From Bacillus niameyensis (lineage in GTDB: Bacteria; Bacillota; Bacilli; Bacillales; Bacillaceae_C), in NCBI RefSeq assembly GCF_001375535.1, contig NZ_LN831197.1, positions 3,204,780 to 3,268,779 on the forward strand: a DNA stretch of 64,000 nt, written 5' to 3'. Under the pieces are notes generated by a model. The model did no database searches. It had not been told where the DNA came from and saw only the letters and a list, made by a program, of their open reading frames with translations. The position numbers were made by a program, and so were the translations under genes. Below are positions 7,609 through 31,565 of this stretch, in pieces; the first letter of the stretch is position 1; the number at the start of each line of letters is the position of its first letter.

Positions 7609-9288
7609 TTAGTCTTCTAATTTGTTATCTCTTACTAGTTGCAATAGGGCTGGGATATGGTGTGGTGTTATTTGCGGCTCCGCTAATTCTTCTTTCACAA
7701 TATGCCACCAATCAAACAATTCGAGATAGATTAGATCAAATATCATGATCCCGTGTGTCTTCTCTAAATCCATCCGTATTGCTTCTCTGAAAACTTCAGG
7801 CCGATCTTTATACTGATTTAAATATAGGCTTCCATAAACAAAGGTAGCACTATTAACTGCCTCCATGGCAAGCTCGGCAGATCCTTCTACACTATATACT
7901 TCCGGGCGATTATTTGCGATTGCCTCTTCTTTTGTAATATCTTCAAAATAGGTGCCTGTCATAATGAAATCAAGTGTCTCAGCATAACCCGTTTTATGGT
8001 AGTCTTCACTTGCCCAACTATATTCTGGTTTGTATGTTTGGCTTGCCCAGTTCACACCTTCACTATAATAATCGGAATACCACGCTCCAACATAGGTACT
8101 GAAATATACATCTTCATTAATTTCATGAATTAAGTTTTCAGCCTTTTTAAAGAAGGATTGAATATTCTTAGCTCTCCACTCAATCCACTTCTTATAATGA
8201 ACACCCGGGACGAGCTTGTCTCCATTCTCATGATCAATTGTAAAAATGTCAGCTGGCCAACTCTCAATTTGTTGTCCAATATATTCTTCAAATTTATCTC
8301 TACTTAAATCGCTAAAATCAGCGTTAACATTATTATATCTCGCTCTGTCTAAGACAATGCCGTCCAACTCATAATTTTGAACCAATTCTTCTATAATGCC
8401 AAGCTCATAGTTTTGCACATCTTTGTTGATAGGATTAACAAAAGTCGAATGACCTGGAGCCTCTGATGCAGGAATAAGCTGTGCTTCGGAATTCACCTCG
8501 ATTTCATCACCGACTGAAAGGTTGCCCAAGATCCATTGTCTAGCTGTACCATGGCCAGATAGGACATATCCATTTTCAGGAATATCTAAAGCTGGTTCAC
8601 CTGTTGTACTTTGATCGGAAATTTTCGTAATAATCCCATCGACGACTTGTACTTCTGCTCCCCAACGATTAGCTGGTGAAACTTCGTAAGCATCTCTCGT
8701 ATACATCACTAAATAATTTGTATTTCTAGTTATATTTGTGCCTGATAGATTAAAAGTCGCTCCGTTGTTATTTTTGACTTGGCGAACACTTTGATAAAGG
8801 ACGCTCTGCCATTCTGGATGCTCGTAAGCAGGTCCTTCTTGATAAGTCGTACTACCTTCTGAAAATACATTAATAGCTGCATGTACTTTTATATTATATT
8901 TTTTTGCTTCATCTATCACCGTTTGGAGTAAATCATAGTTTGCAGGATAGCCTTGATAATTAGGTATTGTTGATGTGCTTATGTGCGGAGCCAGTCTACT
9001 ATTGTATGCTGTATAGCCTGTGGAGTTTTTTATGTCAAGGATGATCGTATCAAAGTTTGCATCTGCTGTTTTTGCAACAATGTCTTTAACCTTTTCAGGA
9101 GTATCAAGATTAAATAAGTTTGCCGATAAATCGTACCAAAGGATTCTTGCTTTTGAGTTTTTGTCCTTAATTAAATTTTCAAGCATCATAGGTCGAAGAT
9201 GATCTCTTCCCCCATCTCTTGCGCTTACTGGTAATGCCATCATAAAAACTAAAAGGAAACAAGAACATAAAGAAAACCATTTCTTCAA
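7609..9288 (-). CDS. Secreted glycosyl hydrolase-like 10 (GHL10) protein, YngK type
   Basis: A 559-residue exported protein. Residues 1-23 form a signal peptide (MKKWFSLCSCFLLVFM, cleavage likely after PVSA). The body matches the GHL10 family (formerly DUF187): ILWYDLSANLFNLDTPEKV, FDTIILDIKNSTGYTAYNS, KKYNIKVHAAINVFSEG, ELDGIVLDRARYNNVNADFSD and YFSTYVGAWYSDYYSEGVNW. Relatives include B. subtilis YngK and E. coli DigH, which acts on peptidoglycan strands lacking stem peptides. It lies opposite to the ABC operon and may release glycan fragments that the importers take up; that link is inference. Confidence 0.82.
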   Translation of the reverse strand: MKKWFSLCSCFLLVFMMALPVSARDGGRDHLRPMMLENLIKDKNSKARILWYDLSANLFNLDTPEKVKDIVAKTADANFDTIILDIKNSTGYTAYNSRLAPHISTSTIPNYQGYPANYDLLQTVIDEAKKYNIKVHAAINVFSEGSTTYQEGPAYEHPEWQSVLYQSVRQVKNNNGATFNLSGTNITRNTNYLVMYTRDAYEVSPANRWGAEVQVVDGIITKISDQSTTGEPALDIPENGYVLSGHGTARQWILGNLSVGDEIEVNSEAQLIPASEAPGHSTFVNPINKDVQNYELGIIEELVQNYELDGIVLDRARYNNVNADFSDLSRDKFEEYIGQQIESWPADIFTIDHENGDKLVPGVHYKKWIEWRAKNIQSFFKKAENLIHEINEDVYFSTYVGAWYSDYYSEGVNWASQTYKPEYSWASEDYHKTGYAETLDFIMTGTYFEDITKEEAIANNRPEVYSVEGSAELAMEAVNSATFVYGSLYLNQYKDRPEVFREAIRMDLEKTHGIMIFDLIYLELFDWWHIVKEELAEPQITPHHIPALLQLVRDNKLED

Positions 9289-9823
9289 ATTAATTCACTC
9301 CTTTTAAAATATGCCCTAAAACTAAAGAAAATAGTGTCCTCCTCCTTTCTATACAACATTCTGAAGTCAGGGCTAGACTTCAAGATGATAATAACATAAT
9401 TTTCAGTATAGTAGATCAATTCTCCAGTTATATTATAAAAAGAGGAATTAATCCCTATAACGTCCAAAAAGGGACTAAAAAAAAACGGTAGATAGGCAAA
9501 TAGTTGTTATTCAAATAAACAGTAGATATCTTTTTATATGAACCAATTAATTTTATAGAGTAGGAAATCAAGCATTGCTCTTTAAGGTTTACAACTTGCC
9601 TATAGTATCTTTGGCAATGAATAGAAATTGGTATAAAACAAATATTCGAGTAACGGCATAATATAATGAATAGTCATAACTTTTGTATTGACATAAATAG
9701 TGTGAATAATATAAAATAAAGTTGGTGGTAAATACCTTCGTAGTATTATTTTATGGAGGCAAATACCATCTGAAAATAGAATAATAATAACTTAAGAATG
9801 GTTCACTAAAAGGGGGATAAAGA
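9289..9823 (+). promoter_or_regulatory. Intergenic region with promoter of the first ABC operon
   Basis: No gene is seen in these 535 bases. TTGACA (9688-9693) and TATAAA (9710-9715), 16 bases apart, form a good promoter for the operon starting at 9824. Just downstream are GGTGGTAAATACC (9724-9736) and GGCAAATACCATC (9757-9769). The first resembles the GGTGGTAATACC motif at the GntR genes at 28.3 and 29.2 kb, with one extra base. Confidence 0.6.
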
Positions 9824-11155
9824 TTGCTAAAAATGAAAAGGCTTTCAGTGTTGTTGGCTGTTTTTGTTTTACTTCTGATGGCGGGTTGTTCAGGAAACGG
9901 TACTTCTGATTCTACTTCAAAGACAGGCGGCTCTTCAGATGGAAATACGCAAGGGGAAAAGGCTGGTACGGATACAGAGAAACCCCCGAAAGATGTAGAA
10001 CTTAAGTTTTGGACAATTTCATTAAGCCCAACGTTTGATGATTATATTAATGGATTAATTGATCAATTTGAAGAGGAGAACCCTGGTGTCACTGTTAAAT
10101 GGGAGGACATTCCATATGACACGATTGAACAGAAAACATTGACAGCAGCAGCTTCTGGTCAACTTGCTGATGTTATGAATTTGAACACGGATTACCTGAA
10201 AAAACTTGCCGCTGTAGGAGGGATTCTTGATTTAACAGAAAGAGCAGCTGATGTAAAAGATGATTTCTTTGCAGGTGTTTGGGAAGCTGGTAATTTAGGT
10301 GATAAAACATATGCTCTACCTTGGTACCTCTCAACGGGTGGTTTACTCTATAATACAGAGTTATTGGCAAAAGTCGGATATGATCATCCTCCAGCAACAG
10401 ATGAAGAGGCTTGGGAAATTTCGGAAGCCCTTTATGAAAAGTTAGGGGTATACGGAAGTACTCCGAAAGATGTCCATTTATATCTGCCGCAAAATGGCAT
10501 GCCTCTAGTATCGGAAGATCTAAAGAGTGCAGCATTCAACACACCAGAAGTTCTTGCGGTGTTTAAGGATTTCAAAGAAAAATTTGATAAAGGATTAATT
10601 CCGAAAGAGATTTTATTAGGTCAAGCTGAACCGAATGAATGGTATGCGCAAGAAAAGATGGCTTGGTGGGGAACAGGGCCGCAGCTTTTCCGCCAGGTGA
10701 AAGATTTATCTCCTGAAGTGTATGAAAAATCGGATGCAGCACCTTCTATTGTTGGATCTTCTGGATTCAGGCACGTTTCCATTATGAATATTGCTGTAGC
10801 TGCGAAATCTAAAAATCCAGATGAAGCTGTTGAATTCGCTAAGTTTGTGACAAATGCAGAAAGTCAATTAGCATTCGCTAAAATTGTCGCTATCCTGCCT
10901 TCTGTTATTGAAGCGACTGAAGATGAGTTCTTTACTCAGGGCGAAGATTCAGATGATCCTGCGGAAAAAGGGAAATTCTTTGGTGCCAAACAATTGGATA
11001 TAGCGAAGGATATGTTTGCTCCAGTTGAAAATATCTCGGAGATTAATAAGACAATTAATGAAGAGTTCCATAAAGTCTTAATTGACAATAAAGATCCACA
11101 GAAAGCACTTGACGATGCTGAAGCAAAAGTTAATGAACTACTGAAGGATGAGTAA
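9824..11155 (+). CDS. Sugar-type ABC transporter solute-binding lipoprotein
   Basis: A 443-residue family 1 extracellular binding protein (MalE-like). The start TTG 9824 is chosen because AAAGGGGG ends 7 bases upstream; the ATG three codons later is too far. The lipobox LMAGC puts the lipidated Cys at residue 22, after a 16-residue hydrophobic stretch, followed by a Ser/Gly/Thr-rich linker. ELKFWTISLSPTFDDYINGLIDQFEEENPGV-type sequence begins the mature fold. It is the first gene of an importer operon with two permeases but no ATPase; a shared MsmX-type ATPase is usual for such operons in Bacillus. Confidence 0.9.
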   Translation: MLKMKRLSVLLAVFVLLLMAGCSGNGTSDSTSKTGGSSDGNTQGEKAGTDTEKPPKDVELKFWTISLSPTFDDYINGLIDQFEEENPGVTVKWEDIPYDTIEQKTLTAAASGQLADVMNLNTDYLKKLAAVGGILDLTERAADVKDDFFAGVWEAGNLGDKTYALPWYLSTGGLLYNTELLAKVGYDHPPATDEEAWEISEALYEKLGVYGSTPKDVHLYLPQNGMPLVSEDLKSAAFNTPEVLAVFKDFKEKFDKGLIPKEILLGQAEPNEWYAQEKMAWWGTGPQLFRQVKDLSPEVYEKSDAAPSIVGSSGFRHVSIMNIAVAAKSKNPDEAVEFAKFVTNAESQLAFAKIVAILPSVIEATEDEFFTQGEDSDDPAEKGKFFGAKQLDIAKDMFAPVENISEINKTINEEFHKVLIDNKDPQKALDDAEAKVNELLKDE

Positions 11156-11306
11156 TAGTTTGCCAGAAACTATTTTAAAAAGATTCTAGTTTAATACTGT
11201 TTTGAAGGCATTCTAGTGCAATAGCATGATGAATGCCTTCTTTACTAAATCAGTAAGTTTCACTTTATGCACTTTGACATTCACGAGATTGCTAGGGGGG
11301 GTAGTA

Positions 11307-12164
11307 TTGTATAAAGCTAGACATGCTTGGTCGTTTCTAATACCAGCAGGATTATTATTGGCCGTTTTTAGCCTTATTCCTGCTGCAGCCGCATTAGGAC
11401 TGAGCTTTACAAAGTATAATGTGTTTGAGCAGTCTGTAGATTGGGTTGGATTTGACAATTTTATAAAAGCATTTAAAGATGAAGATTTTTTGCAAGCGTT
11501 GAAAAATACGTTTTACTATTGGATTCTCGTTACTCCTGCCTTAGTCGTACTGCCTGTTTTTCTTGCTATATTAGTCAATCAAAAGCTAATTGGAATAAAG
11601 CTATTTCGTCTAACTTACTATTTTCCTGTTCTTGTTTCAGTCGTCATCACTGCAATACTTTGGAATTGGTTGTTCTCCAGTGATGGTATCTTAAACTATC
11701 TACTAAGTCTTGTTGGAATTAGTGCTGTAGATTGGTTAACGAGTACGAAAATGGTCATGCCAAGTCTAGCGTTGGTAACCGTTTGGCAAGGACTTGGCTA
11801 CTATATGCTCTTTTATTTGGCCGGTTTGCAATCTGTGCCAACAGATTTATATGAGGCATCTGAACTCGACGGAGCAAACTTTTGGCAAAAACATGTACAT
11901 ATTACATTTCCAATGTTGCGTCCAATCATCTTTTTTGTTGCCGTTGTTTCGACGATGTCAGCATTTAAAGAGTTTACTCTTATGTTAACAATGACAGAAG
12001 GCGGACCGATCGGGGCTTCGACTACGGTTGTTTATATGGTTTTCCATAAGGCTTTTAAGCAGTTAGATATGGGTTACGCGAGTGCAATTTCATTTTTATT
12101 ATTTATTATCATCATGTTGTTAACTCTTCTTAATAAAACTACCTTGGATAAGGAATCAACGTAA
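11307..12164 (+). CDS. ABC sugar permease, MalF type
   Basis: The frame is open from further upstream, but TTG 11307 has a GGGGGGG ribosome site 5 bases before it and gives 285 residues beginning MYKARHAWSFLIPAGLLL, the usual permease length. Six hydrophobic segments are visible. The ATPase-contact (EAA) loop is EASELDGANFWQKHVHITFP near the C-terminal third. It pairs with the permease 13 bases downstream and with the binding protein upstream. Confidence 0.88.
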   Translation: MYKARHAWSFLIPAGLLLAVFSLIPAAAALGLSFTKYNVFEQSVDWVGFDNFIKAFKDEDFLQALKNTFYYWILVTPALVVLPVFLAILVNQKLIGIKLFRLTYYFPVLVSVVITAILWNWLFSSDGILNYLLSLVGISAVDWLTSTKMVMPSLALVTVWQGLGYYMLFYLAGLQSVPTDLYEASELDGANFWQKHVHITFPMLRPIIFFVAVVSTMSAFKEFTLMLTMTEGGPIGASTTVVYMVFHKAFKQLDMGYASAISFLLFIIIMLLTLLNKTTLDKEST

Positions 12165-12177
12165 GGAGGGAGCCGCT

Positions 12178-13077
12178 ATGAGCTACAATAAAGTGAACCC
12201 AGATCAAGTAGTAGGGGTAAATCCGAAAATTAAAAGGCGCTGGATGCCAAGTAGACGAAAAGCGATTAGTTATCTAATTTCATATTTCTTTTTAATTCTT
12301 ATGGCTGTGGTTACGATTGTTCCCTTTTTATGGTCAGTTTCAACGGCATTAAAAGGACAAAATGAAGCAATCTATTCATTTCCCCCTAATTTTATTCCGG
12401 AAAATATAACTTTTAGTAACTTTGTAACAGTATGGAAAACAATTCCCATCCCTCGTTATTTATGGAATAGTACGATTCTAGCCTTTTGGGGTGTAGTTCT
12501 ACCATTAATTTTTTGCTCCTTGGCTGCCTTCCCATTGGCGCGGATGAATTTTAAGGGGAAGAATATCGTATTCATGGTCATTCTTGCGACGATGATGATT
12601 CCTGGAGAAGTAACGATGATTCCGATTTATTTAATATTGGAGAGGTTACATTTAATCGGGTCATTTTCTGGAGTCATTCTGCCAGGAGCAGTATCCGCAT
12701 TCGGAATTTTCTTGATGAGACAAGCTTATATGGGGATACCGAAGGAAATCGATGAATCTGCGATTATTGATGGAGCAAATCCATGGCAAATTTGGTGGCA
12801 TATATTGCTTCCAATGGTGACGCCAATGCTTGCGACACTAGCAATCTTAAGTTTCATCGGATCATGGAATAATTTCCTTTGGCCCTTGCTAGTTTTACAA
12901 GAACCAAGTACATACCCGCTAACGGTAGGGCTATACAACCTAAAAGGCGCCTTTGTATCAGATACAAGACTCGTTTCCGCAGGTGCTGTTATTGCCCTAA
13001 TCCCAATTTTAATTGTCTTTGTCGCATTCCAAAAGTACTTTATTAAGGGAGCCTATAGTAGTGCGGTGAAGGGGTAA
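12178..13077 (+). CDS. ABC sugar permease, MalG type
   Basis: A 299-residue inner-membrane permease with six hydrophobic segments and the EAA loop DESAIIDGANPWQIWWHILLP. The ending FIKGAYSSAVKG is typical of MalG-type subunits. The ribosome site AAGGAGGGAG lies close to the ATG and only 13 bases separate it from the previous gene. It completes the membrane part of the first importer; no nucleotide-binding subunit follows, and a terminator closes the operon. Confidence 0.9.
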   Translation: MSYNKVNPDQVVGVNPKIKRRWMPSRRKAISYLISYFFLILMAVVTIVPFLWSVSTALKGQNEAIYSFPPNFIPENITFSNFVTVWKTIPIPRYLWNSTILAFWGVVLPLIFCSLAAFPLARMNFKGKNIVFMVILATMMIPGEVTMIPIYLILERLHLIGSFSGVILPGAVSAFGIFLMRQAYMGIPKEIDESAIIDGANPWQIWWHILLPMVTPMLATLAILSFIGSWNNFLWPLLVLQEPSTYPLTVGLYNLKGAFVSDTRLVSAGAVIALIPILIVFVAFQKYFIKGAYSSAVKG

Positions 13078-13097
13078 GTTTTGGCGATGATGAGATG

Positions 13098-13140
13098 AAT
13101 AGAAAGAACCCAAAAGAGTTTTGGGTTCTTTCTATTGTTT
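13098..13140. terminator. Bidirectional terminator between ABC operon and glpP
   Basis: An 18-bp perfect stem (AATAGAAAGAACCCAAAA and its complement) around loop GAG, with T-rich tails on both strands. Confidence 0.92.
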
Positions 13141-13159
13141 TTATATATGATCTAGTTAA

Positions 13160-13729
13160 CTATTCAATGTCTATATTCCAAAGTCTTGAATTTCCTGAAG
13201 AAATCGCAAGTGCTCCTGCCTTAACAGCAGCTAATATCCCTTGTTTATTGTCGATGAAGCCCCCAGCAATAATTGGAAAATCAATCTCATGAGAAAGTTG
13301 ATCAATAATGCTAGGCATAAGTCCTGGAAGCACTTCAACTGCATCAGGATGGCAGGACTTTGAAGTCTCAATCCCTTTTGTTAGAGCGCTGTGATCAATT
13401 AGAAAGATGCGCTGAATAGTATATAAACCTAATTCTTTGGCATATTTTATCAAGGAAACTCTAGTTGTAATAATACCAGCTGGATTCCAAGCCTTAGCAA
13501 TATATTCTATGGCACTCTTCGTATTAGAAAGGCCCTCGACGAAATCAATATGGATAAACGCATGTTTATTAGCCTTCTTAAGTTCCTTTATATATTTATC
13601 CATGTTTAGCAAATTCCCAGTTAAAATAAAAACGACATCACTTTTGCTATTGATAGCCTTTTCAATATCGGATTCCTTTTGGACAGAAGGGATGATGAGT
13701 GAGTCTACCATATCAACTATATCTAGCAT
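13160..13729 (-). CDS. glpP: Glycerol-3-phosphate responsive antiterminator GlpP
   Basis: The 189-residue protein is full length for GlpP. Characteristic segments are HIDFVEGLSNTKSAIEYIAK, NPAGIITTRVSLIKYAKELG, TIQRIFLIDHSAL and the end PIIAGGFIDNKQGILAAVKAGALAISS. In B. subtilis GlpP with glycerol-3-phosphate lets transcription pass leader terminators of glpD, glpFK and glpTQ. It is usually next to those genes; here it lies inside the ABC/phosphodiester island, opposite to its neighbours. A candidate target is the leader hairpin at 23876 before a glycerophosphodiesterase gene. The start follows GAGGGAGA. Confidence 0.9.
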   Translation of the reverse strand: MLDIVDMVDSLIIPSVQKESDIEKAINSKSDVVFILTGNLLNMDKYIKELKKANKHAFIHIDFVEGLSNTKSAIEYIAKAWNPAGIITTRVSLIKYAKELGLYTIQRIFLIDHSALTKGIETSKSCHPDAVEVLPGLMPSIIDQLSHEIDFPIIAGGFIDNKQGILAAVKAGALAISSGNSRLWNIDIE

Positions 13730-13960
13730 GTCTATATCTCCCTCGATATTATTTCAATTTAATGTTTTTTCCATTCTATCATTAATCGAATCTCTAAAAA
13801 AGGAATAAAACCTTCTAATCCGAATATAGCGACCAAAGACAGGTGGAGAAGACAAGGGGAAATTTTCTCCTTAATCCTATTCAGATAGTTCCATTCAGTA
13901 AGGATAAATTAAAATATTCTAAAAATGCTTGATATTCACAAATCGTTGTATTATGATTTA

Positions 13961-14011
13961 TTCAATCAATTTGATTAATGCTCAAAACTTATTCAATCAA
14001 ATTGATTAATG
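13961..14011 (+). promoter_or_regulatory. Tandem palindromic operators for the ROK regulator
   Basis: TTCAATCAATTTGATTAATG (13961-13980) and TTCAATCAAATTGATTAATG (13992-14011) differ at one central position and start 31 bp apart, three helical turns. Each has the palindromic core AATCAA/TTGATT. Looser relatives, AAATCATTTTGATTT and ATAATCAAAAT, follow at about 14026-14050. The rest of the 13730-14114 gap holds no gene. They probably serve autoregulation by the ROK protein. Confidence 0.7.
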
Positions 14012-14114
14012 AATGTCTCTTTACTAAATCATTTTGATTTATAATCAAAATAGAGAGAGAAATTTATAGGTGAAATGATTAATTTTAAACGCACAACAGG
14101 AAAGAGAGACTGAA

Positions 14115-15281
14115 ATGAAAATAAAAAAAGCCTCAAATAGTAAAATGATCAAAGCTATTAATGAAAAGTCAATTTTAAACCTTATTTACATGGAAGGCCC
14201 CATTCCCCGTGTAAAGCTAGCGGAGAAAACAGGACTTTCACAACAAACGATAACGAACATTGTTAATCGTTTGCTTTCAGAAAGAATAGTTTTGGAAACA
14301 AGCGGGGTTTCTAATGGAGGTGGCCGAAAGCCCATTCCACTCATTATAAATGGTAGGAATATGTACGCCATTGGTATAGAAATAGCTGTTAAATATATTC
14401 GCGGGACGCTAATGGACTTTGAAAATAATATTATTACGGAATCAATAGAACAAGTTCCTATCTATAGGGATGAAGAGCAACCATTAAAATATATTTTTAG
14501 AGTTGTTGAGAGATTATTAGAATTTGTCCCAAATCGTGAAGCACTAAAAGGGATAGGTTGCAGTATTCAAGGGATTGTTGATTCAGAAAATGGAATAGTA
14601 GTTTACGCAGCAGGTGTAAGACTAAATAATTTCCCTTTGAAGGAAAAAATTCAGGAGCACTTTGGCTATCCCGTTTATCTACAAAACGACGCAAACCTGC
14701 TTGCTATTGTAGAAAATTTAAACGGAACGTTAGCATCTTCTCGCCAAAATATTACATTGAAATTTGACTATGGAATTGGGGGAGCCGCTGTTGTAAATAA
14801 ACAATTAGTTCACGGTGCAGACAATGTGGCATTTGAATTTGGGCATTACAAAGCTTTTATGGGAAAAGAGGCTTATCCTTGTCACTGTGGTTCAAAAGGA
14901 TGTTTAACTACTTTAGCTTCTTTAAGTGGGTTAAAAAGGAATGAAGGATACTTATTGGAGGAATTTTCCTTGGGAGTTAGAGAGAAGAATAAACAGGCCC
15001 TTCAACTTTTTGGCAAACTTGAATCAGCCATTTCTTATGCTATTGCAAATGTAATAACTTTATTAAATCCAGATCATGTGCTGCTTACAGGACAAATCAT
15101 TGATACATTGACAGATGAATTGGTTCCTTTACTAGAACAACATGTTAGAGAATTAATCCCTGAGTCATGTAAGAAAGTAAAGCTTATTCAATTATCAAAA
15201 ACTCCAGATGAATCAAAGTTGGCTGTCGGTTTAGTCATGCATGAGTTTTTTGCTGTTCCTATTGATCAATATTATTTATAG
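14115..15281 (+). CDS. ROK family transcriptional repressor
   Basis: At 388 residues it has an N-terminal winged helix (residues about 10-70: ILNLIYMEGPIPRVKLAEKTGLSQQTITNIVNRLL-type) followed by a ROK sugar-kinase-like domain. The zinc motif is CHCGSKGC near residue 255, and DYGIGGAAVV is the phosphate-binding-like loop. XylR and NagC are relatives; they bind sugars or sugar phosphates and release DNA. It is followed 32 bases later by the HAD and phosphodiester glycosidase genes, so it likely controls this unit and perhaps both importers. Confidence 0.87.
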   Translation: MKIKKASNSKMIKAINEKSILNLIYMEGPIPRVKLAEKTGLSQQTITNIVNRLLSERIVLETSGVSNGGGRKPIPLIINGRNMYAIGIEIAVKYIRGTLMDFENNIITESIEQVPIYRDEEQPLKYIFRVVERLLEFVPNREALKGIGCSIQGIVDSENGIVVYAAGVRLNNFPLKEKIQEHFGYPVYLQNDANLLAIVENLNGTLASSRQNITLKFDYGIGGAAVVNKQLVHGADNVAFEFGHYKAFMGKEAYPCHCGSKGCLTTLASLSGLKRNEGYLLEEFSLGVREKNKQALQLFGKLESAISYAIANVITLLNPDHVLLTGQIIDTLTDELVPLLEQHVRELIPESCKKVKLIQLSKTPDESKLAVGLVMHEFFAVPIDQYYL

Positions 15282-15313
15282 GATTCTAAATTTTAATGAT
15301 AAGGGGGAGTCAT

Positions 15314-18835: not shown

Positions 18836-20278
18836 ATGAGAAGAGCCTTACAGGTTATGTTCATATTGATGTTACCATTATTCATTATAATTGGTTGTAG
18901 TAATTCTAATAACACTGCAGGGGAGAAAACTGATAATAGTAATAACCCTGACGAGTCAGGTGAGGTAGAAGTATACGAAAATGGCTTACCGAAAAATGAA
19001 AAGGTGACATTAAAGTATGGCTTTTTTGTCGGGGGGTATGGACGTGAATGGGTAGATTATGCAATAGATACTTTTACAGAAAAGTACCCAAATGTAAAAA
19101 TCGAAATTACAGCTTCACCTGATATCTCTCAAATATTATCAACTAAAATTTCAGCAAATAATGATAAAGATATGTTCGATATTTTTAACCGTGAACCATC
19201 TGGTGGGGTAGTAACCTTAGCGGAAGCAGGAAAATTAGAAGAGATGGATGATTTTTGGGGATATAGCATACCGGATGCCTCCGATAATACGGTTAAAGAT
19301 TTAATGATGAATGGATTATTTGAATCGGTTAACCGAGTGAATGGGAAGTCATATGAAATTCCAACATCAGCTAGTGTTGGCGGATTGTTTTTTAATAAAA
19401 ATTTATTTGAAGAGCATGGATGGAATCAGAATCCGAAAACTTGGGATGAATTTGTCCAACTTCTTGAGGAGATAAAAAGTGACGGAATAACTCCAATTAC
19501 ATTTCCGGGTATTCATCCAAGTTACCATGATTGGGCGTTCGGTGATGTAAAGTCATTTGAAATTGCTGATAAGAATGGAAACGCAGAACAGTATATGGAG
19601 GAGTACCAAACATATCAAAATTTAGTTTTTACAAAGCCAGAGGATGAAGAGCGCTGGGAAAAGATTTATGAACTTGGCAAAAAGGGTTATTTCGCTGAAG
19701 GGTTACCAGCATTAAACCACACTCAATCACAAATGCAAGTACTACAAGCTGATGTTGCAATGGTATCTACAGGCAGTCATGTTGAAAATGAAATGAAGAA
19801 CTCTGCCCCAGAGGATTTTGAATGGGGGTTTATGTCGGTTCCATTTATTGATTCAACAGATCAAACATTATGGGTACGGCAAGGAACGTCTAATGGCCAC
19901 TTCATTTGGGCAGGAAAACCAGATTTAAATAAAAAATGGGCAAAAGAATTTATTCTTTGGATGTTAACACTTGATATTCAAGAAAAGGCTGCTGAGAGTG
20001 GATCACTCTCCGTTCGAAATGACTTTGTGAATGACCCTGAAAGATTTGAGAAACTTCAAAGTTCAGCTAAATCTGTACTCGATTATATAGATAAAAATAA
20101 TGTGCAATTAGCTAGAGCTTACAGATCTGTATCAATTACACATCCATCTCGGGAACAGGCTTTCAAAGTAAGAGACGAGGCTATTTCGAACATATTCTTA
20201 GGTAAACAAGATCCAAAACCGATATTTGAAAAAGCAGAGAAACTCATACAAGAGGCGTTAAAAGATAATGAAAAATAA
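18836..20278 (+). CDS. Second ABC solute-binding lipoprotein
   Basis: A 480-residue family 1 extracellular binding protein. The lipobox IIGC places the lipidated Cys at residue 21 after a hydrophobic stretch, then an Asn/Ser/Gly linker. The mature part has the typical TLKYGFFVGGYGREWVDYAI opening and WDEFVQLLEEIKSDGITPI. It is not close to the first binding protein (9824) beyond the fold, so the two importers probably take different substrates. Two permease genes follow. Confidence 0.9.
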   Translation: MRRALQVMFILMLPLFIIIGCSNSNNTAGEKTDNSNNPDESGEVEVYENGLPKNEKVTLKYGFFVGGYGREWVDYAIDTFTEKYPNVKIEITASPDISQILSTKISANNDKDMFDIFNREPSGGVVTLAEAGKLEEMDDFWGYSIPDASDNTVKDLMMNGLFESVNRVNGKSYEIPTSASVGGLFFNKNLFEEHGWNQNPKTWDEFVQLLEEIKSDGITPITFPGIHPSYHDWAFGDVKSFEIADKNGNAEQYMEEYQTYQNLVFTKPEDEERWEKIYELGKKGYFAEGLPALNHTQSQMQVLQADVAMVSTGSHVENEMKNSAPEDFEWGFMSVPFIDSTDQTLWVRQGTSNGHFIWAGKPDLNKKWAKEFILWMLTLDIQEKAAESGSLSVRNDFVNDPERFEKLQSSAKSVLDYIDKNNVQLARAYRSVSITHPSREQAFKVRDEAISNIFLGKQDPKPIFEKAEKLIQEALKDNEK

Positions 20279-20320
20279 ATCGAGGAGGGGATTCCCCCTT
20301 CTTAGGAGAGGAGTGATACT

Positions 20321-21268
20321 GTGTCTGTTACTTCCCTTGCCCAAAAGTTGAAGGCCCCATTTCAAAAGTCATCACTTGAAAAAGCTAATGTGCAAAAGAC
20401 TATGTTTTTATTACTAGCAATTGGTCCCCCATTCGGCGGCTATTTACTTTTTACATTGTATCCCAACATCTTGTCGGTCTACTATGCTTTCCTAGATTGG
20501 GATGGTATGACAGATCCCACTTTTGTGGGCTTTAAAAATTTTGTTGCGATGTTTAAGGATGAATTTGTTTGGAGAGCGCTATATCATAATTTGCTATTAA
20601 TTATTGTTATACCTACTTTTGTTATCGTAATCTCGCTCATTCTAGCCTATTTCCTTGCAAATAAGAGTTATAGGGAAAATGGATTGTTAAAGGTATTATT
20701 CTTTTTTCCAAATGTGTTATCCACCGTTGTGGTTGCTCTTCTTTGGGCATTTATTTATGACGGGAATTATGGATTACTTAATGGGGTATTACGATTCGTT
20801 GGTTTAGATATCGGGAATTTTTACTGGCTTGGGAATGAAAAAACGGCATTATGGGCTATAGTGCCAGCTTGGGTATGGGGAGGCGTTGGGCTATATGTCA
20901 TAATTTTTGTCAATGCAATGATTGCGATTCCTAAGTCCTTTTATGAGTCTGCTATTATGGACGGCGCAGGTGATTGGACCCTATTAAGAAAAATTACCTT
21001 ACCTATGATCATGCCTGTTGTGAGAGTAAGTATATTATTTTTAGCCGTAGGTACAATCAAGGGATTCGAATTTATTTTAATTTTGACTAATGGCGGGCCA
21101 GCTGGATCGACGGATGTAATCGGTCTTTATATGTTTAATCTTGCATTTGGCGAAGGCTCTCATAATTATGGGTACGCTTCAGCTATTGGCATGTTATTGT
21201 TTGTCATTTTGTGTATGACAAAGATTCTGATGGATAAATATATGGATAAACGCGGAATTGATTATTAA
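20321..21268 (+). CDS. Second importer, permease of MalF type
   Basis: The 315-residue protein has six hydrophobic segments and the EAA loop ESAIMDGAGDWTLLRKITLP. Its N-terminal cytoplasmic tail is about 30 residues long. The GTG start at 20321 follows AGGAGAGGAGTGATACT, a clear ribosome site. Family members import sugars or glycerophosphodiesters (UgpA is a close relative in type); the exact substrate is open. Confidence 0.88.
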   Translation: MSVTSLAQKLKAPFQKSSLEKANVQKTMFLLLAIGPPFGGYLLFTLYPNILSVYYAFLDWDGMTDPTFVGFKNFVAMFKDEFVWRALYHNLLLIIVIPTFVIVISLILAYFLANKSYRENGLLKVLFFFPNVLSTVVVALLWAFIYDGNYGLLNGVLRFVGLDIGNFYWLGNEKTALWAIVPAWVWGGVGLYVIIFVNAMIAIPKSFYESAIMDGAGDWTLLRKITLPMIMPVVRVSILFLAVGTIKGFEFILILTNGGPAGSTDVIGLYMFNLAFGEGSHNYGYASAIGMLLFVILCMTKILMDKYMDKRGIDY

Positions 21269-21288
21269 TTGAAAGGGGTTGAGCAAAG

Positions 21289-22125
21289 TTGGTAGAAAGG
21301 CGAACAATGATGGATGTCGTATGGCGCCTATTATTATATTTATGGGCATTTACTATTCTTTTTCCATTGGGATGGATTTTTTATCAGTCGTTAAAAACAA
21401 ATCCAGAATTTTTCCAGAATATATGGGCCTTTCCAGAAAAAATGCAATTTCACAATTATACAAATGCATGGAATGATTATGGGTTTGCAAAAGCGCTATT
21501 AAATACATTATATTATGTCGGCGGTACCCTCGTTGTTGGCTTATTTTTTACTACAATTAACGCGTATGCATTAACACGGATAGAGTTTAAGGGAAGGAAA
21601 ATCATTTGGGCTTTAATTATGCTCTCCCTTTTCTTACCTGGAATTAACGCACTTGTTCCGCAATATGTTGTGATGAGGTCACTAGGTTTAACAAACAGTC
21701 TAACAGGTTTGATCTTATTATCCAGTTTAGGAGAAAGTGTATTTTACTTAATGCTTCTTGGAGGATTTATGAAATCAATTCCAAAAGAGGTAGAAGAAAG
21801 TGCCTTCTTGGATGGTGCTTCCTACTTCCAAATCTTTTTGAAAATCATTATTCCGTTATCTTCTCCAGGTATTGTTACTGTAGCGATTTTCAAATTTATC
21901 GGCTATTACAATAGTTTCCTAGGTCCATTTATTTATTTGAGTGACCCTGAAAAGTACACTATAGGGGTGCAAATGTATCAAGCAAATAAGCTTATGGAAT
22001 ATACAGCTGATTGGGTAACGTTATTCGCAGGCGTAATGATTGCGATGATTCCGTCAATTGTAATCTTTATATTGTTCCAAAAGTGGATATTGAAAGGAGC
22101 ATCACTGGGTGCTGTTAAAGGGTAA
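21289..22125 (+). CDS. Second importer, permease of MalG type
   Basis: A 278-residue permease with six hydrophobic segments and the EAA loop EESAFLDGASYFQIFLKIIIP; the end KGASLGAVKG is typical. The TTG start at 21289 follows GAAAGGGGTTGAG by a few bases; the ATG at 21307 is an alternative. No ATPase subunit gene follows, so like the first importer it must borrow one. The phosphodiesterase-like gene downstream starts 62 bases later. Confidence 0.87.
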   Translation: MVERRTMMDVVWRLLLYLWAFTILFPLGWIFYQSLKTNPEFFQNIWAFPEKMQFHNYTNAWNDYGFAKALLNTLYYVGGTLVVGLFFTTINAYALTRIEFKGRKIIWALIMLSLFLPGINALVPQYVVMRSLGLTNSLTGLILLSSLGESVFYLMLLGGFMKSIPKEVEESAFLDGASYFQIFLKIIIPLSSPGIVTVAIFKFIGYYNSFLGPFIYLSDPEKYTIGVQMYQANKLMEYTADWVTLFAGVMIAMIPSIVIFILFQKWILKGASLGAVKG

Positions 22126-22187
22126 TTGTTGAACAAATTTTTATTGGGTCATCTAAGACTCTATAAACTTTAAAAGGTGATATTGTT

Positions 22188-22973
22188 ATGAAAATATTAC
22201 AGTATAATGTTTTGGATGGTTGTAAGGAAAGCGGACGTTATAATCAGTTAAAGCAGTTACTCATTCAAGAGAAATACGATATTGCAGGATTTAATGAATT
22301 AAATGACTGGACTCAGAAGGAATTTCAAAAAGAAATGGAAAAGATAGGTTTTTCCCATAGCTATTTGTTCGAAATGAAATCTAGTCCTTACTTTTTGGGG
22401 ATAACTGCTAAATACCCAATAGAACTTATTTATACGGAGGAAGCCGCCCCATTTCATCATGGTCTTTTACATGTGAAGATTCGTGATATCAATATAATCG
22501 TTACACATTTAAGTCCATTTGAATCCATTATTCGTGAACTGGAAACTAAAAAAATTGCAGAGTATATTCGTGAGATTAAAGCACCTCTTTTAGTCATGGG
22601 TGATTTAAATACTTTATCACCTTTAGACAAGGAGTATCATAATCAAATTAATATGAAGGAGAAAATTCAGAACCGAAGTTTTCAGAACAGGCAACATATT
22701 TTTGAGGGAGAAATTAATTATAGACCAATGCAAACTCTGCTTGAAGCTGGTCTGAAGGATATCGGTTTTAATGGTTCTTCCGATTATTCGATGCCTACAA
22801 AAATCAAAGGGAAGCCAGAAAATCCTACGTATTTAAGGATTGACTATATGCTCGCAAATTCAGCTCTCTTACAATTTGAACCAGAAGCAGAGATTGTCCA
22901 TGGGTCAGAAGTGGATACATTATCAGATCATTATCCAATTCAGTGCATAATGAAAAAATTTCAGCATAAATAG
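22188..22973 (+). CDS. Endonuclease/exonuclease/phosphatase (EEP) family enzyme
   Basis: The 261-residue protein shows the EEP motifs in order: LQYNVLDG near residue 4, FNELNDW near 37, VTHLSP near 105, MGDLNTLSPLD near 139, RIDYMLAN near 222 and LSDHYPI near 245. The family includes DNases, sphingomyelinases and sugar-nucleotide or glycan phosphodiesterases. There is no signal peptide, so it acts in the cytoplasm. Placed between an importer and phosphatase genes, it most likely cleaves an imported phosphodiester rather than nucleic acid, though that is inference. Confidence 0.82.
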   Translation: MKILQYNVLDGCKESGRYNQLKQLLIQEKYDIAGFNELNDWTQKEFQKEMEKIGFSHSYLFEMKSSPYFLGITAKYPIELIYTEEAAPFHHGLLHVKIRDINIIVTHLSPFESIIRELETKKIAEYIREIKAPLLVMGDLNTLSPLDKEYHNQINMKEKIQNRSFQNRQHIFEGEINYRPMQTLLEAGLKDIGFNGSSDYSMPTKIKGKPENPTYLRIDYMLANSALLQFEPEAEIVHGSEVDTLSDHYPIQCIMKKFQHK

Positions 22974-23017
22974 TAGAGGTCCATTAGTGTTAGTAATTAG
23001 GAAGGGTGGCTGAAATT

Positions 23018-23773
23018 TTGAAGAAATGGATTACGTTCGACTTGGATGAAACGCTAATGCAAAATCCATTTGGTAAATGGGTTTTTCCGGAAGTAGAGAA
23101 CCTTGTATCTTCATTCCACATCAAGGATGGAATTCTAAAAAAAATAAGAAATGAACATAAAAGGAGAATGGACCAACAAAAATTAAGGGATGCCTATGAT
23201 TGGGACAATATTATAAAACAGGTATTAAGAGAAGAAGGCATCCAACTTGAGATTAATATTGAATCACTCGTCCGTAAACATTCAATTCCGCCAAAAGTTT
23301 ATTTGTTAGAGGAGAATCTTTTAAATACTTTAGACCGCGTCAAGCAAAAGGGATTTTCTCTTGGAGTAGTAACAAATGGCTTTTATAAATATCAATTTCC
23401 AGTTATGGAGTCTATCGGTTTGGCGGATGTTATGGATATGATAGTGACACCTTGTCAAACGGATTGTGCTAAGCCTGATATTAGTATGGTTAAGAGATTG
23501 CCAGGAGAAGGGGAAATAGTTGCACATGTTGGTGATCGACTAGATCATGATGTTTCATTTGCTAATGAGCTAGGGATTCAATCTATACTAATCGATCGGG
23601 AAATGCCAGAGGAAATGAGAAAGTTAGCTCCGGTAAACCGTGCACAGCAAACGGAATATGTGGAAAAGTTATTTAAAAAGGGTATCTACCGCGATCTTCA
23701 GTTTGAGAAAAAATACATTCCGAACATTATTATTCACTCCATTTATGAACTACTAGAGAAAGAAATGTCATAA
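23018..23773 (+). CDS. HAD family hydrolase
   Basis: A HAD-superfamily protein with the nucleophile motif TFDLDETLM at the N-terminus, VVTNGF as motif II, and HVGDRLDHDVSFANELG as the metal motif. It is of the subclass I type (helical cap between about residues 20 and 100). The frame opens with GTG 23006, but GGAAGGGTGG sits too close to it; TTG 23018 (MKKWITFDLDETL) has better spacing and I prefer it. It probably removes phosphate from a product of the preceding EEP enzyme. Confidence 0.82.
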   Translation: MKKWITFDLDETLMQNPFGKWVFPEVENLVSSFHIKDGILKKIRNEHKRRMDQQKLRDAYDWDNIIKQVLREEGIQLEINIESLVRKHSIPPKVYLLEENLLNTLDRVKQKGFSLGVVTNGFYKYQFPVMESIGLADVMDMIVTPCQTDCAKPDISMVKRLPGEGEIVAHVGDRLDHDVSFANELGIQSILIDREMPEEMRKLAPVNRAQQTEYVEKLFKKGIYRDLQFEKKYIPNIIIHSIYELLEKEMS

Positions 23774-23812
23774 AAGTAATTAAAAATGTTATGTTAGAAA
23801 ATTGTGTATTGG

Positions 23813-23841
23813 TTGACAAGTGAAAAATCAATTTATATAAT
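23813..23841 (+). promoter_or_regulatory. Strong SigA-type promoter before the GDPD gene
   Basis: TTGACA (23813-23818) and TATAAT (23836-23841) match consensus exactly with a 17-base spacer. It starts a leader of about 180 bases. Confidence 0.88.
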
Positions 23842-23875
23842 TGGGTGAAAATGAATATCGGGTGGAGAAGAAGAG

Positions 23876-23945
23876 AACCCTAAAAAAGTTAATGAGTCGA
23901 ACAAGATGTTTGAATTCTATTAATCTTTTTAGGGTTTTGTTCTTT
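23876..23945 (+). terminator. Leader terminator, candidate GlpP target
   Basis: Within the leader, AACCCTAAAAAAGTTAAT pairs with ATTAATCTTTTTAGGGTT (16 of 18 positions) across a loop of about 25 bases and is followed by TTGTTCTTTG. It lies between a consensus promoter and the GDPD gene, so transcription would stop unless antiterminated. GlpP, encoded at 13160, controls such hairpins in B. subtilis glp leaders. Confidence 0.65.
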
Positions 23946-24032
23946 GAATTAAAAGACCACAAATCTTAATATAAAGGTAGAAAAGCTAGCAAAAGGGAAA
24001 TAAATAAATCTAGAATCAAAGGGGTTTTTCTT

Positions 24033-24764
24033 GTGACAAAAATATTTGCGCACCGAGGGAGTTCTGGAACACATCCAGAAAACACACTGGCTTCATTTAA
24101 AGAGGCGATCCGACTTGGAGTAGATGGAATTGAATTGGATATTCAATTAACAAAAGACCAAAATCTTGTTGTTATTCATGACTATACACTAGATCGCACG
24201 ACTAATGGTACAGGGCAAGTGAATGAGTATACACTAGAAGAAATAAAAGGCTTCGATGCGGGATCGAAATTTTCTCCAGAGTTTCAAAGTGAGAGAATCC
24301 CTACTTTTCGAGAGGTTCTAGAATTGTTGAAGGACACAAATATAGAATTGAATATTGAAATTAAAAGCCCAGTGAAACATGAAACAGGTATTGAAGAGAG
24401 AATGATACAAGAGATAAAGGAGTATGGCTTATTAAATAGAGTTGTTGTGTCCTCTTTTAACCATGATTCTCTCAAGCGAGTAATAAAACTCGTTCCAGAA
24501 GTAGAAAGTGCCATTTTATATACAAAAAAGATGGATGATCCTTGGAAGTATGCCGCAGCAATTGGGGCGACAGCTCTTCATACTTATGAACCTGAAACGG
24601 AAATAGAAATGATTGCAGAAGCGCAAGAGAAGGGTTTTCCTGTTCGAGTATTTACCGTGAACGAAAAGGAGAGCATGGAAAAGTTTTTTAAATGTAATGT
24701 TGCGGCCATTTTTACTGATTATCCCGAGAAAGCGTTGAGTCTTAGAGAAGTTTCATTAAGATAA
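24033..24764 (+). CDS. Glycerophosphodiester phosphodiesterase, cytoplasmic
   Basis: At 243 residues it is a compact GDPD enzyme. Catalytic and metal residues are visible: FAHRGSSGTHPENTLASF (His, Arg, Glu), GIELDIQLTKD (Glu, Asp), VVIHDYTLDRTTNG (His), LNIEIKSP (Glu, Lys) and the end IFTDYPEKAL. No signal peptide is present, unlike exported GlpQ. It hydrolyses glycerophosphodiesters to glycerol-3-phosphate and an alcohol, which would feed the GlpP signal. Start GTG 24033 follows AAAGGGG. It sits behind a leader terminator. Confidence 0.9.
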   Translation: MTKIFAHRGSSGTHPENTLASFKEAIRLGVDGIELDIQLTKDQNLVVIHDYTLDRTTNGTGQVNEYTLEEIKGFDAGSKFSPEFQSERIPTFREVLELLKDTNIELNIEIKSPVKHETGIEERMIQEIKEYGLLNRVVVSSFNHDSLKRVIKLVPEVESAILYTKKMDDPWKYAAAIGATALHTYEPETEIEMIAEAQEKGFPVRVFTVNEKESMEKFFKCNVAAIFTDYPEKALSLREVSLR

Positions 24765-24837
24765 ATAAAATTTCCCTACTGCCTAGTTCCTCCTATGAGG
24801 GACTTGAAGCGAAAAAAATTAAGGAGACAATAATATA

Positions 24838-25590
24838 ATGCCTAATTACAAACTGTTAGCCCTTGATTTGGATGGAACTACATTGACAGATGATAAGCGA
24901 ATTACAGATGAAACAAAGAAGTGGATTCGCCAAGCGACAAATGAAGGGGTAACTGTTATTTTCGCCACTGGACGTGGCATTCAAACGACAATTGACTACT
25001 GGAAGGAATTAGCTCTAGAGTCACCAATGGTTTTAGTCAATGGAGCAGAAATTTGGAAAGGCCCAGAGCAAGTTTGGGAGCGATACTTTCTTAACCAAGA
25101 CGATTTACGTTGGCTCCATGACAAAGCAGAGCAGGCAGGAGTTCACTATTGGGGCTATAGTGTGGAAAGTTTTACAAATAAACATAGTTGGACAACTGAA
25201 ATGTTTGAAAGAAAATGGCTAAAGTTTGGAATGAGCGATACGAATGAAGCTAAAATTACAGAGATTCGCGAACTTTTGCAAAAGCGAGGTACATTAGAAA
25301 TAACTTGTTCAGCTCCTACTAATATAGAAATCTCAGTAAAGGGGATTTCTAAAGAAACAGGTGTAAGAAGGGTATGTGAGTTACTTAATATCACTATGGA
25401 TCAGGTTATGGCTATTGGTGATAATCTGAATGACGAGCGATTAATCCGTGCAGCAGGTCTTGGTGTTGCAATGGGAAATGGTGATGAGTCATTGAAAAAG
25501 GCAGCGGACGTTGTAACAGGGACGAATGAAGATAATGGCGTAGCCAAAGCGATTGAACGTTATTTGTTGGGGACTTATGTAAAATCATAA
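24838..25590 (+). CDS. Cof-type HAD phosphatase, copy B
   Basis: A 250-residue close paralogue of the product at 15314: both open with NYKLLALDLDGTTLTDDK and share long blocks such as MVLVNGAEIWKGP, WLKFGM, KETGVRRVC and MAIGDNLND. By eye roughly two thirds of residues are identical. The HAD motifs are intact in both. An AAGGAGA site precedes the ATG. The two copies lie 9.5 kb apart in one island, each next to a phosphodiester-cleaving enzyme, so they probably process related but distinct phosphorylated products. A terminator follows. Confidence 0.88.
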   Translation: MPNYKLLALDLDGTTLTDDKRITDETKKWIRQATNEGVTVIFATGRGIQTTIDYWKELALESPMVLVNGAEIWKGPEQVWERYFLNQDDLRWLHDKAEQAGVHYWGYSVESFTNKHSWTTEMFERKWLKFGMSDTNEAKITEIRELLQKRGTLEITCSAPTNIEISVKGISKETGVRRVCELLNITMDQVMAIGDNLNDERLIRAAGLGVAMGNGDESLKKAADVVTGTNEDNGVAKAIERYLLGTYVKS

Positions 25591-25624
25591 TTCATAAATA
25601 TAATAGGTTGAAGTTTCTTTTTGA

Positions 25625-25676
25625 AAGTGGTGGCGAATCTCTATTGCAAAGATAGGGATTTGCCATCACTTTTTTC
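25625..25676 (+). terminator. Terminator after HAD copy B
   Basis: AAGTGGTGGCGAATC pairs imperfectly with GATTTGCCATCACTT, the inner part also pairs, and TTTTTT follows. Confidence 0.88.
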
Positions 25677-25870
25677 CTAACATATAAATGAATATTCGTA
25701 AAAAATCCTCTTTCTAAATAAGGCTCCCGTAATCAATTGTTAAGCGATTACACCATTTCCTTTACAAAATCTTTACATTCCTTAATATTTACATTTCTAT
25801 TGTTCTTATTTAAGATGGGAAAGGGAAGAGTGAAATATGTCGAAATGAATAAATTATTAGGGGAGAAGAC

Positions 25871-27496
25871 ATGGACTTGCAAGCATTGCTTTTTACATTT
25901 TTTGGTGGCTTGGGGATTTTCCTTTATGGTATTAAAAGCATGGGGGATGGTCTTCAAAAGGTTGCAGGTGATGGACTAAGAGATTTATTAGATCGATTTA
26001 CAACAAAGCCGATAATGGGTGTGTTAACAGGTATACTTGTAACAGTCTTAATACAATCAAGTTCCGGAACAACCGTACTGACGGTAGGTCTTGTAACAGC
26101 TGGTTTTATGACTCTTAGACAAGCGATCGGTGTCATCATGGGTGCCAATATTGGTACAACTGTAACGGCTTTTATTATTGGTGTTGATGTTGGTGAGTAT
26201 GCTTTACCTATTTTAGCATTAGGTGCTTTTCTTATATTCTTCTTTAAAAATCATAAGATCAATAATTTTGGTCAAGTTTTCTTTGGATTTGGAGCTTTAT
26301 TCTTTGGTTTAAATTTAATGGGTGACGCTATGAAGCCACTCCGAGATGCACAAGCATTTATTGATATGATGGTCAGTTTAGGGGAAACCCCAATATTAGG
26401 TGCTGGCATCGGGGCGCTCTTTACGATGGTTGTTCAAAGTTCATCAGCATCTGTCGCACTATTGCAAACTTTGTATGATCAAAATGTTGTTACATTACAA
26501 ACAGCCCTACCGATTCTTTTTGGGGAAAATATTGGTACAACGATTACCGCTGTTTTAGCTTCAATAGGTGCTTCTATTTCAGCTAGGAGAGCGGCGGCTA
26601 CACATGTTCTTTTTAATTTAATTGGGACGATACTAGTCCTTATATTGCTTACACCATTTACTCATTTGATAGAGTTTTTCCAATCAGGTTTGGACTTGAA
26701 TAATAAAATGACCATTGCCTTTGCACATGGGACGTTTAACATTACTAATACGGTTATCCAATTTCCTTTCATAGCGGGTCTAGCTTGGATTGTGACAAAG
26801 CTGGTACCTGGTGAAGATACTGCTATTGAGCATAAGGCTATTCATTTAGGGGAACAGTTTATCCGTCAATCGCCTTCTGTTGCTTTGGGACAAGGGAAAA
26901 AGGAAGTATTGCGGATGGCTGAACTAACTGAAAAGGGAATGGATGAAGTCGGTACGTATTTTAAAACGCAAAATAAAAAACAACGTGAATTACTTCCACA
27001 AATCGAAGATGCTCTTAATAATTTAGATAAGACAATTACAGAATATTTAATGCAAGTTTCTTACCATTCTTTATCGGATCAAGATTTGAAAACACACCAT
27101 GTGTTAATGGATTCAGTGATTAACTTGGAAAGAATCGGGGATCATATCGAAAATATTATGGAATTGATCGATATTCAGATCCAAAATAAGGTGAAATTTT
27201 CTGAGTCAGCTCTAGCTGATCTAGATGAGATGTTTGGGTTAACGATCTCTACGTTAAGACAGGCTATAAATGCATTAGAGAATAACGATATCGAACAAGC
27301 CCAAGCTGTTCGAGAAAAGGAAATTCTTATTGATAAAATGGAGCGGGAACTTCGCAAAAACCATATCCTGCGCCTAAATGAAAATCAATGTACTGGAACT
27401 GCAGGAATTGTATATGTTGATATTGTAAGTAACCTTGAGCGAATCGGTGACCATGCAGTGAATATTGCAGATGGGGTTATTGGTGAGGATAAGTAA
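25871..27496 (+). CDS. Na+/phosphate cotransporter with PhoU-like tail
   Basis: The 541-residue protein has the duplicated Na/Pi-cotransporter core in its first 310 residues, with paired motifs QSSSGTTVL and QSSSASVAL, one in each repeat. Residues about 340-540 form a helical PhoU-like domain (NLERIGDHIENI and NLERIGDHAVNI repeats). NptA-type proteins move phosphate with sodium and can run either way. Its place at the end of a phosphodiester-degrading island suggests phosphate balance or export of excess phosphate. The ATG follows AGGGGAGA. Confidence 0.92.
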   Translation: MDLQALLFTFFGGLGIFLYGIKSMGDGLQKVAGDGLRDLLDRFTTKPIMGVLTGILVTVLIQSSSGTTVLTVGLVTAGFMTLRQAIGVIMGANIGTTVTAFIIGVDVGEYALPILALGAFLIFFFKNHKINNFGQVFFGFGALFFGLNLMGDAMKPLRDAQAFIDMMVSLGETPILGAGIGALFTMVVQSSSASVALLQTLYDQNVVTLQTALPILFGENIGTTITAVLASIGASISARRAAATHVLFNLIGTILVLILLTPFTHLIEFFQSGLDLNNKMTIAFAHGTFNITNTVIQFPFIAGLAWIVTKLVPGEDTAIEHKAIHLGEQFIRQSPSVALGQGKKEVLRMAELTEKGMDEVGTYFKTQNKKQRELLPQIEDALNNLDKTITEYLMQVSYHSLSDQDLKTHHVLMDSVINLERIGDHIENIMELIDIQIQNKVKFSESALADLDEMFGLTISTLRQAINALENNDIEQAQAVREKEILIDKMERELRKNHILRLNENQCTGTAGIVYVDIVSNLERIGDHAVNIADGVIGEDK

Positions 27497-28296: not shown

Positions 28297-28305
28297 GTGC
28301 TGAGG

Positions 28306-29201: not shown

Positions 29202-29236
29202 TAATACAATTAAATATGAAAAGAGATGAATTTTAA

Positions 29237-31559: not shown

Positions 31560-31565
31560 TAAGAG

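Follow-up and report, generated by a model that had tools for sequence, protein, structure and literature searches.

A candidate regulon for phosphodiester-linked saccharides with a signal-less NAGPA-family protein in Bacillus niameyensis

The window analysed here is a stretch of 64,000 nucleotides from Bacillus niameyensis (contig NZ_LN831197.1, positions 3,204,780 to 3,268,779 of the forward strand; host genome of 4.68 Mb). Positions 7609-27496 of the window hold an island in which genes for importers, phosphodiester-cleaving enzymes and phosphatases lie together. A sequence-only reading had proposed that this island is one system for the import and cytoplasmic breakdown of phosphodiester-linked glycans. 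All the genes that it named are present, and the Pfam score of each exceeds the curated cut-off; they are listed below with the promoters and candidate regulatory sites that accompany them (SBP, solute-binding protein; Perm, permease).

7609-9288, minus strand: glycosidase with GHL10 and DUF4985 domains, secreted according to the sequence-only reading
9824-13077: importer 1, a binding protein and two permeases (SBP1 to PermB1)
13160-13729, minus strand: GlpP (PF04309), the sole match in the window's genome
13929-13957, plus strand: promoter of ROK-Cof1-NAGPA, TTGATA-17-TATGAT
13964-14039, plus strand: three palindromic operator-like sites, exact copies of AATCAAWTTGATT at 13964 and 13995 and a copy with one mismatch at 14027, spaced by 31 and 32 bp
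14115-15281, plus strand: ROK-family repressor with a winged helix-turn-helix
15296-16054, plus strand: Cof1, a Cof-type HAD-IIB sugar phosphatase, 79-83% identical to the Cof of four relatives
16055-18340 (open reading frame; likely 16109-18340), plus strand: NAGPA (PF09992), with no signal peptide and a C-terminal domain like carbohydrate-binding modules
18836-20278, plus strand: SBP2, lipoprotein-like solute-binding protein of importer 2
20321-21268 and 21289-22125, plus strand: PermA2 and PermB2, permeases of importer 2
22188-22973, plus strand: EEP-superfamily (PF03372) phosphodiesterase or phosphatase, no signal peptide (by eye)
23006-23773, plus strand: HAD-IA-like phosphatase, 3′ of EEP in all five island genomes
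23813-23841, plus strand: promoter of the GDPD unit, with consensus TTGACA-17-TATAAT
23860-23950, plus strand: GlpP-type leader with the terminator-like hairpin GGGTGGAGAAGAAGAGAACCC and then a T-rich end
24033-24764, plus strand: GDPD, glycerophosphodiester phosphodiesterase, no signal peptide (by eye)
24838-25590, plus strand: Cof2, a second Cof phosphatase and paralogue of Cof1 (71% identical)
25871-27496: Na/Pi cotransporter with PhoU domains

NAGPA abuts Cof1 with no gap and is followed by about 495 bases before SBP2. From SBP2 through PermA2, PermB2 and EEP to HAD the intergenic gaps are 20-62 bases, and a gap of 259 bases, which holds the perfect promoter and a long hairpin, precedes GDPD and Cof2. 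CcpA-type control was considered and rejected, the single cre match being at chance level and inside NAGPA.

NAGPA scores 97.7 bits against PF09992 (gathering cut-off 25). The NAGPA family is more often secreted. Here, the TTG at 16109 is a likelier start than the ATG at 16055, judging from the TTG starts of relatives, and neither start gives a signal peptide by eye. Signal-less NAGPAs have 3-8 cysteines versus 0-1 in signal-bearing homologues. The missing signal peptide, together with a cysteine content of the signal-less type, suggests that the NAGPA of the island is probably cytoplasmic. Residues N120, F123, R324-T325, D340, N369 and D371-GGG-S375 are invariant across 12 aligned homologues, the stretch bearing these motifs can be aligned to PDB 3ohg and 6pki, and the predicted fold matches solved NAGPA when the model is aligned to PDB chains. 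Model comparison also likens the C-terminal domain to carbohydrate-binding modules, including the mannan-binding CBM27. The protein shares family, conserved motifs and predicted fold with the vertebrate uncovering enzyme (6pki, 6pkg) and the DUF2233 protein 3ohg, but differs in being signal-less, multi-domain and encoded in an importer-linked operon. NAGPA-family proteins are widespread among bacteria, occurring in 6 of 14 control genomes. In the family-level search, which like the order-level one (397 genomes) was a sample, 15 of 34 genomes pass the E-value; four carry NAGPA of the island type and the rest enter through the C-terminal module or distant copies. A second signal-less, cysteine-bearing NAGPA type was seen at L030 (10269-12392) and L031 (10334-12436); its neighbourhood at L030 includes binding proteins as well as a sulfatase and an amidohydrolase, another possible context for a cytoplasmic NAGPA. 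The C-terminal module of NAGPA also occurs in an 890-aa calcineurin-type phosphoesterase (L072 8907-11579; L073 7639-10311), directly 5′ of GlpP and an FGGY (glycerol kinase-like) gene (Pfam assignment for L072 only).

The sequence-only reading had proposed conservation across genomes as a check, and the outcome is divided: a core co-occurs at the same site in three relatives, whereas the full gene set is not kept. This core consists of Cof, signal-less NAGPA, an ABC (ATP-binding cassette) importer, EEP, HAD and GDPD. In the three relatives (G013, G009 and G014) the order is MgtC-GDPD-Cof-NAGPA-permease-permease-SBP-SBP-EEP-HAD-NAGPA, the last NAGPA having a signal-like start; the island adjoins CutC in all three and also AsnII in two. 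A further locus at the same site, L044, holds ROK, MgtC, GDPD, Cof, EEP and HAD without NAGPA or importer. Identity to the window's proteins in relatives is 79-83% for Cof, 69-73% for GDPD, 55-59% for HAD, 59-62% for EEP and 58-61% for NAGPA. Records with the island at this site are Lederbergia galactosidilytica DSM 15595, Lederbergia sp. NSJ-179, Bacillus sp. SD088 and 'Bacillus subtilis DE0224'; the last (NZ_VTQV01000014.1, L042) groups with the window's genus and is probably misnamed.

SBP2 was found in two of the 397 order genomes, the window's own and G109, from another family. G109 carries ROK-Cof-DUF218-metallophosphoesterase (with a signal-like start)-SBP2-PermA2-PermB2, and its importer is 65-78% identical to the window's overall, with permeases at 73 and 78%. 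Its ROK, split over two open reading frames, is 45% identical to the window's, and the ROK beside the core in L044 62%. EEP occurs in 4 of the 397 order genomes, one of them without other core genes; a class-level draw gave one of 398 genomes, the window's own, and a pattern scan of species genomes gave seven loci, four of which are this island. EEP was rejected as a sure marker of the island, since B. timonensis and two records from Paenibacillus have it without the other core enzymes. In the two Paenibacillus records EEP adjoins importers that are relatives of the ones in G013, G009 and G014.

A shared candidate operator links the units. Upstream of Cof in G013, G009, G014 and L044 there is a similar promoter with the palindrome AATCAAWTTGATT, and in G013, G009 and G014 the first permease gene of the importer has a second exact palindrome 66-87 bp 5′ of it. 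In G109, exact palindromes lie 71 bp 5′ of the phosphoesterase and 18 bp 5′ of SBP2. Altogether, the exact palindrome precedes these units in six genomes. Island-bearing loci contain 11 exact sites in 221,451 bases, all intergenic, against 0.08 expected under an order-2 model, whereas 48 other loci, partly overlapping and 696,411 bases in total, contain none, with 0.24 expected. G109 was retrieved for its SBP2 and placed among the island loci after its palindromes had been seen; leaving it out gives 9 sites in 198,699 bases. Palindromes in related genomes are non-independent events. From sequence, we infer that ROK would bind this palindrome; candidate operators are repeated at the ROK promoter and the catabolic units, while a near ROK beside the core is missing in three relatives.

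The GDPD unit shows a different arrangement: promoter, then GlpP-type motif, then terminator hairpin. In B. subtilis, GlpP and its ligand glycerol-3-phosphate together open a terminator that lies immediately 3′ of the promoter (PMC9604022). Compared with the B. subtilis GlpP regulon (glpD, glpF, glpK, glpQ, glpT), the GDPD leader has a shape and motif like the glpD and glpF leaders of relatives, but the targets here would be GDPD-Cof2 and, in relatives, MgtC-GDPD. The motif GGGTRGAGAAGAAGAGAACCC is common to the GDPD leaders of the window and four relatives. The hairpin folds more stably than shuffled sequences, with a z of -6.5 in the window, -4.6 to -6.8 in three relatives and -1.4 in L044, where a shorter stretch was folded. 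A covariance model was built on nine glpD- or glpF-like leaders (genes named by Pfam) from seven genomes, three of which also carry the island, and included no GDPD leader. The model was run over ten loci with 194,699 bases; of the five best matches, four precede the MgtC-GDPD genes of four relatives (32.4, 27.6, 25.2 and 24.8 bits), the remaining one (25.0 bits) being in G003. In the window's genome the GDPD leader (22.8 bits, E 1.12) ranks second after a glpD-like leader (62.2 bits). Likely targets of GlpP are the GDPD leader and, elsewhere, a glpD-like gene. The GlpP-type leader before GDPD or MgtC-GDPD makes it likely that glycerol-3-phosphate is produced by the pathway or serves as its signal. 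The GlpP gene itself, present in 27 of the 34 family genomes, lies away from the core in relatives, but its likely target there precedes MgtC-GDPD. An MgtC-family gene (Pfam, all four) stands between leader and GDPD in L023, L026, L028 and L044 and is absent in the window. GlpP-type leader motifs were also seen 5′ of an MFS transporter-like gene in other genera (L076 5048-5157; L077 5602-5711; L081 13828-13937, minus strand), near HAD-like, MgtC-like and GlpP genes (by eye), and may mark further GlpP targets.

Does the whole island form a single functional unit, as had been proposed? For the core, the features of NAGPA, the palindrome and the GlpP-type leader lend support, but one further part is rejected and two are set aside. 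The Na/Pi cotransporter, cast as the phosphate-balancing part, was rejected: it belongs to the chromosomal backbone and has the same backbone neighbours in five relatives without the island. Of seven further loci, five (G006, G007, G016, G017 and G020) have no island gene in the stretch retrieved and show LLM, AsnII, phosphodiesterase and MFS genes around it; a contig end truncates another (G010), and the last (G019) has a different layout. Relatives of the cotransporter occur at E 1e-150 in 18 of the 34 family genomes, and some of these loci were compared. GHL10 and importer 1 were not found with the core elsewhere. No relative of GHL10 was present in 45 retrieved stretches of at least 8 kb, no whole-genome search being made for it, and SBP1 occurs in 2 of the 34 family genomes. 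The single relative of importer 1 in the family (G003, 75-83%) is followed by NanE and further sugar genes, and by DUF4855 and DUF4127. Also in G003, a GlpP 64% identical to the window's lies about 2 kb from SBP1, on its opposite side, and this recurrence of GlpP near SBP1 points to some link between importer 1 and GlpP.

Beside the Na/Pi gene, window positions 27565-32334 hold a sialic-acid type cluster of two GntR/FCD regulators, a DHDPS/NanA-like gene, a BNR sialidase-like gene and NanE. In G009 and G014 the Na/Pi gene likewise has regulators and genes of the NanA-like and BNR kinds next to it. Plasmid origin was rejected, as a near-identity search matched the Na/Pi gene alone, in two records at about 72%. 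Elsewhere in the window there are Rfam matches to Bacillaceae-1 RNA (1579-1645, minus strand) and a PyrR binding site (50820-50953, minus strand), and a DDE_5 transposase-like gene (39537-40991, minus strand).

What would the remaining core do? We read it as a catabolic regulon for phosphodiester-linked saccharides, with our confidence evenly balanced for and against. The pathway is drawn from gene content, conservation, a signal-less NAGPA with cysteines, its fold, the palindrome and the leader motif, and we infer from them the ligand, the reactions and the contacts of ROK with the palindrome and of GlpP with the leader. The ABC importer would bring small phosphodiester-linked saccharides into the cell, where NAGPA would cut the glycosidic side of a sugar-1-phosphodiester, releasing free sugar along with a phosphomonoester. 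Cutting of phosphodiesters from the other side would fall to GDPD and EEP, and removal of phosphate to Cof and HAD. ROK, acting on AATCAAWTTGATT, would control Cof-NAGPA and, in relatives, the importer-EEP-HAD operon, and GlpP, sensing glycerol-3-phosphate, would release the terminator before GDPD. Control by GlpP would fit a glycerol-phosphate substrate, because glycerol-3-phosphate would come both from NAGPA acting on sugar-1-P-glycerol and from GDPD. Teichoic-acid fragments, named in the sequence-only reading, are a candidate substrate. More tentatively, and with somewhat more doubt than belief, we propose a dedicated glycosyl-1-phosphodiester pathway (for example for sugar-1-phospho-glycerol derived from teichoic-type glycans). 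In such a pathway an enzyme of the uncovering-enzyme family would have moved into the cell from outside, one ROK operator would serve exchangeable importers, and GlpP would read glycerol-3-phosphate as the sign that breakdown has succeeded.

Several observations weigh against this reading. L044 keeps GDPD, Cof, EEP and HAD with neither NAGPA nor importer, the importers of G013, G009 and G014 are non-orthologous to the window's (25-30% identity), and no ROK gene close to the window's stands beside the core in the retrieved stretches of these three. An importer of the relatives' type (48-68% identity; L070 16797-19936, with L093) lies near the Na/Pi gene in G019, beside a 2971-aa protein, and in the 36 kb retrieved there we found no NAGPA, EEP or exact palindrome, which argues that this importer type has other uses. 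In the window, SBP2 has no palindrome within two mismatches upstream, and one-mismatch palindromes occur elsewhere in the genomes of G009 (1), G013 (3) and G014 (2). The window's GDPD leader is weak in the whole-genome search, and in a window-only search the hairpin between PermB1 and GlpP scores slightly higher (23.8 bits). Finally, NAGPA-family domains may cut other glycosides, ligand and activity being predictions; NAGPA retains its carbohydrate-binding-like domain, which is commoner outside the cell, and SBP2 resembles sugar and chito-oligosaccharide binders.

This last resemblance leads to the alternative to which we give most weight. In it the importer regulon would serve an oligosaccharide that is neutral or modified in some other way, with the NAGPA-fold enzyme and EEP acting on non-phosphodiester bonds or on an intermediate phosphorylated after import. 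The top scores of SBP2 are to sugar binders of the NgcE and CPR_0540 type, below cut-offs, and in PDB it scores best with 9h0n, a family-1 binding protein, and with NagB2, which binds chito-oligosaccharides. Genes of the ROK and Cof kinds typically belong to neutral-sugar catabolism, the NAGPA type of L030 lies near a sulfatase and an amidohydrolase, and the likeness of the NAGPA C-terminal domain to modules such as CBM27 would also suit such a substrate. Nevertheless, three families of phosphodiester chemistry (NAGPA, EEP and GDPD) recur jointly and GDPD has a GlpP-type leader, and we regard this alternative as unlikely, if still a serious one. We find it improbable that the island serves to recycle wall material or lipoteichoic acid of the cell itself, with no foreign material used as food. 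GlpP-type control of GDPD would fit recycling, as would the signal-bearing NAGPA copy 3′ of HAD in three relatives (with a FIMAH domain in both copies tested) and the signal-bearing calcineurin-type phosphoesterase of the G109 version; ShfP, of the calcineurin-type superfamily, makes extracellular glycerol, perhaps from lipoteichoic acid (PMC11488536). However, the presence of island-type NAGPA in just 4 of the 34 family genomes indicates that its function is not a housekeeping one. An accidental collection of unrelated genes at a variable chromosomal site would account for SBP1, ROK, NAGPA and importers coming and going between genomes, but is quite improbable given the exact palindrome before units in six genomes and an EEP-HAD pair in five and a gene order kept in three (related genomes are non-independent).

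The proposed regulon for phosphodiester-linked saccharides can be compared with described systems. The Ugp importer and UgpQ join ABC import of glycerophosphodiesters to a cytoplasmic GDPD. The island also pairs ABC import with GDPD but adds NAGPA, EEP and ROK, and its binding proteins are not of the UgpB type (18.7 bits for SBP1 and 25.2 for SBP2, against a cut-off of 411). In the agrocinopine system of Agrobacterium, AccA recognises a sugar phosphodiester for import and the phosphodiesterase AccF cleaves it inside (PMC7356202). The scheme of binding protein, import and intracellular phosphodiester cleavage is the same, but NAGPA, EEP and a Cof phosphatase are not named in the available part of that source, the two being compared by description. 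In Xanthomonas, the transporter XanT and the phosphodiesterase XanP allow the sugar phosphodiester xanthosan to be used as food (PMC12807533). Uptake and hydrolysis of a sugar phosphodiester are the likeness; XanP, as described there, is a 2H-type phosphoesterase, whereas no island protein scanned matches such a Pfam family. The earlier statement that no described pathway has this set has to be narrowed: neither the set nor a NAGPA-family enzyme in an import-and-cleave pathway was found in the literature searched, outside which most subscription papers lie, but comparable pathways have been published. Import of phosphodiester sugars with cleavage inside is known, and the link of a cytoplasmic NAGPA to an importer seems to be a new form of it.

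Almost no bacterial role has been assigned to the NAGPA family in the literature that we found. A signal-less, cysteine-bearing member that neighbours an importer, the two being preceded by one palindrome in relatives, would give the family a testable catabolic role, and its context points to small candidate substrates. Searches with the palindrome may reveal more regulon members, and the GlpP-type leader would tie the regulon to glycerol phosphate.

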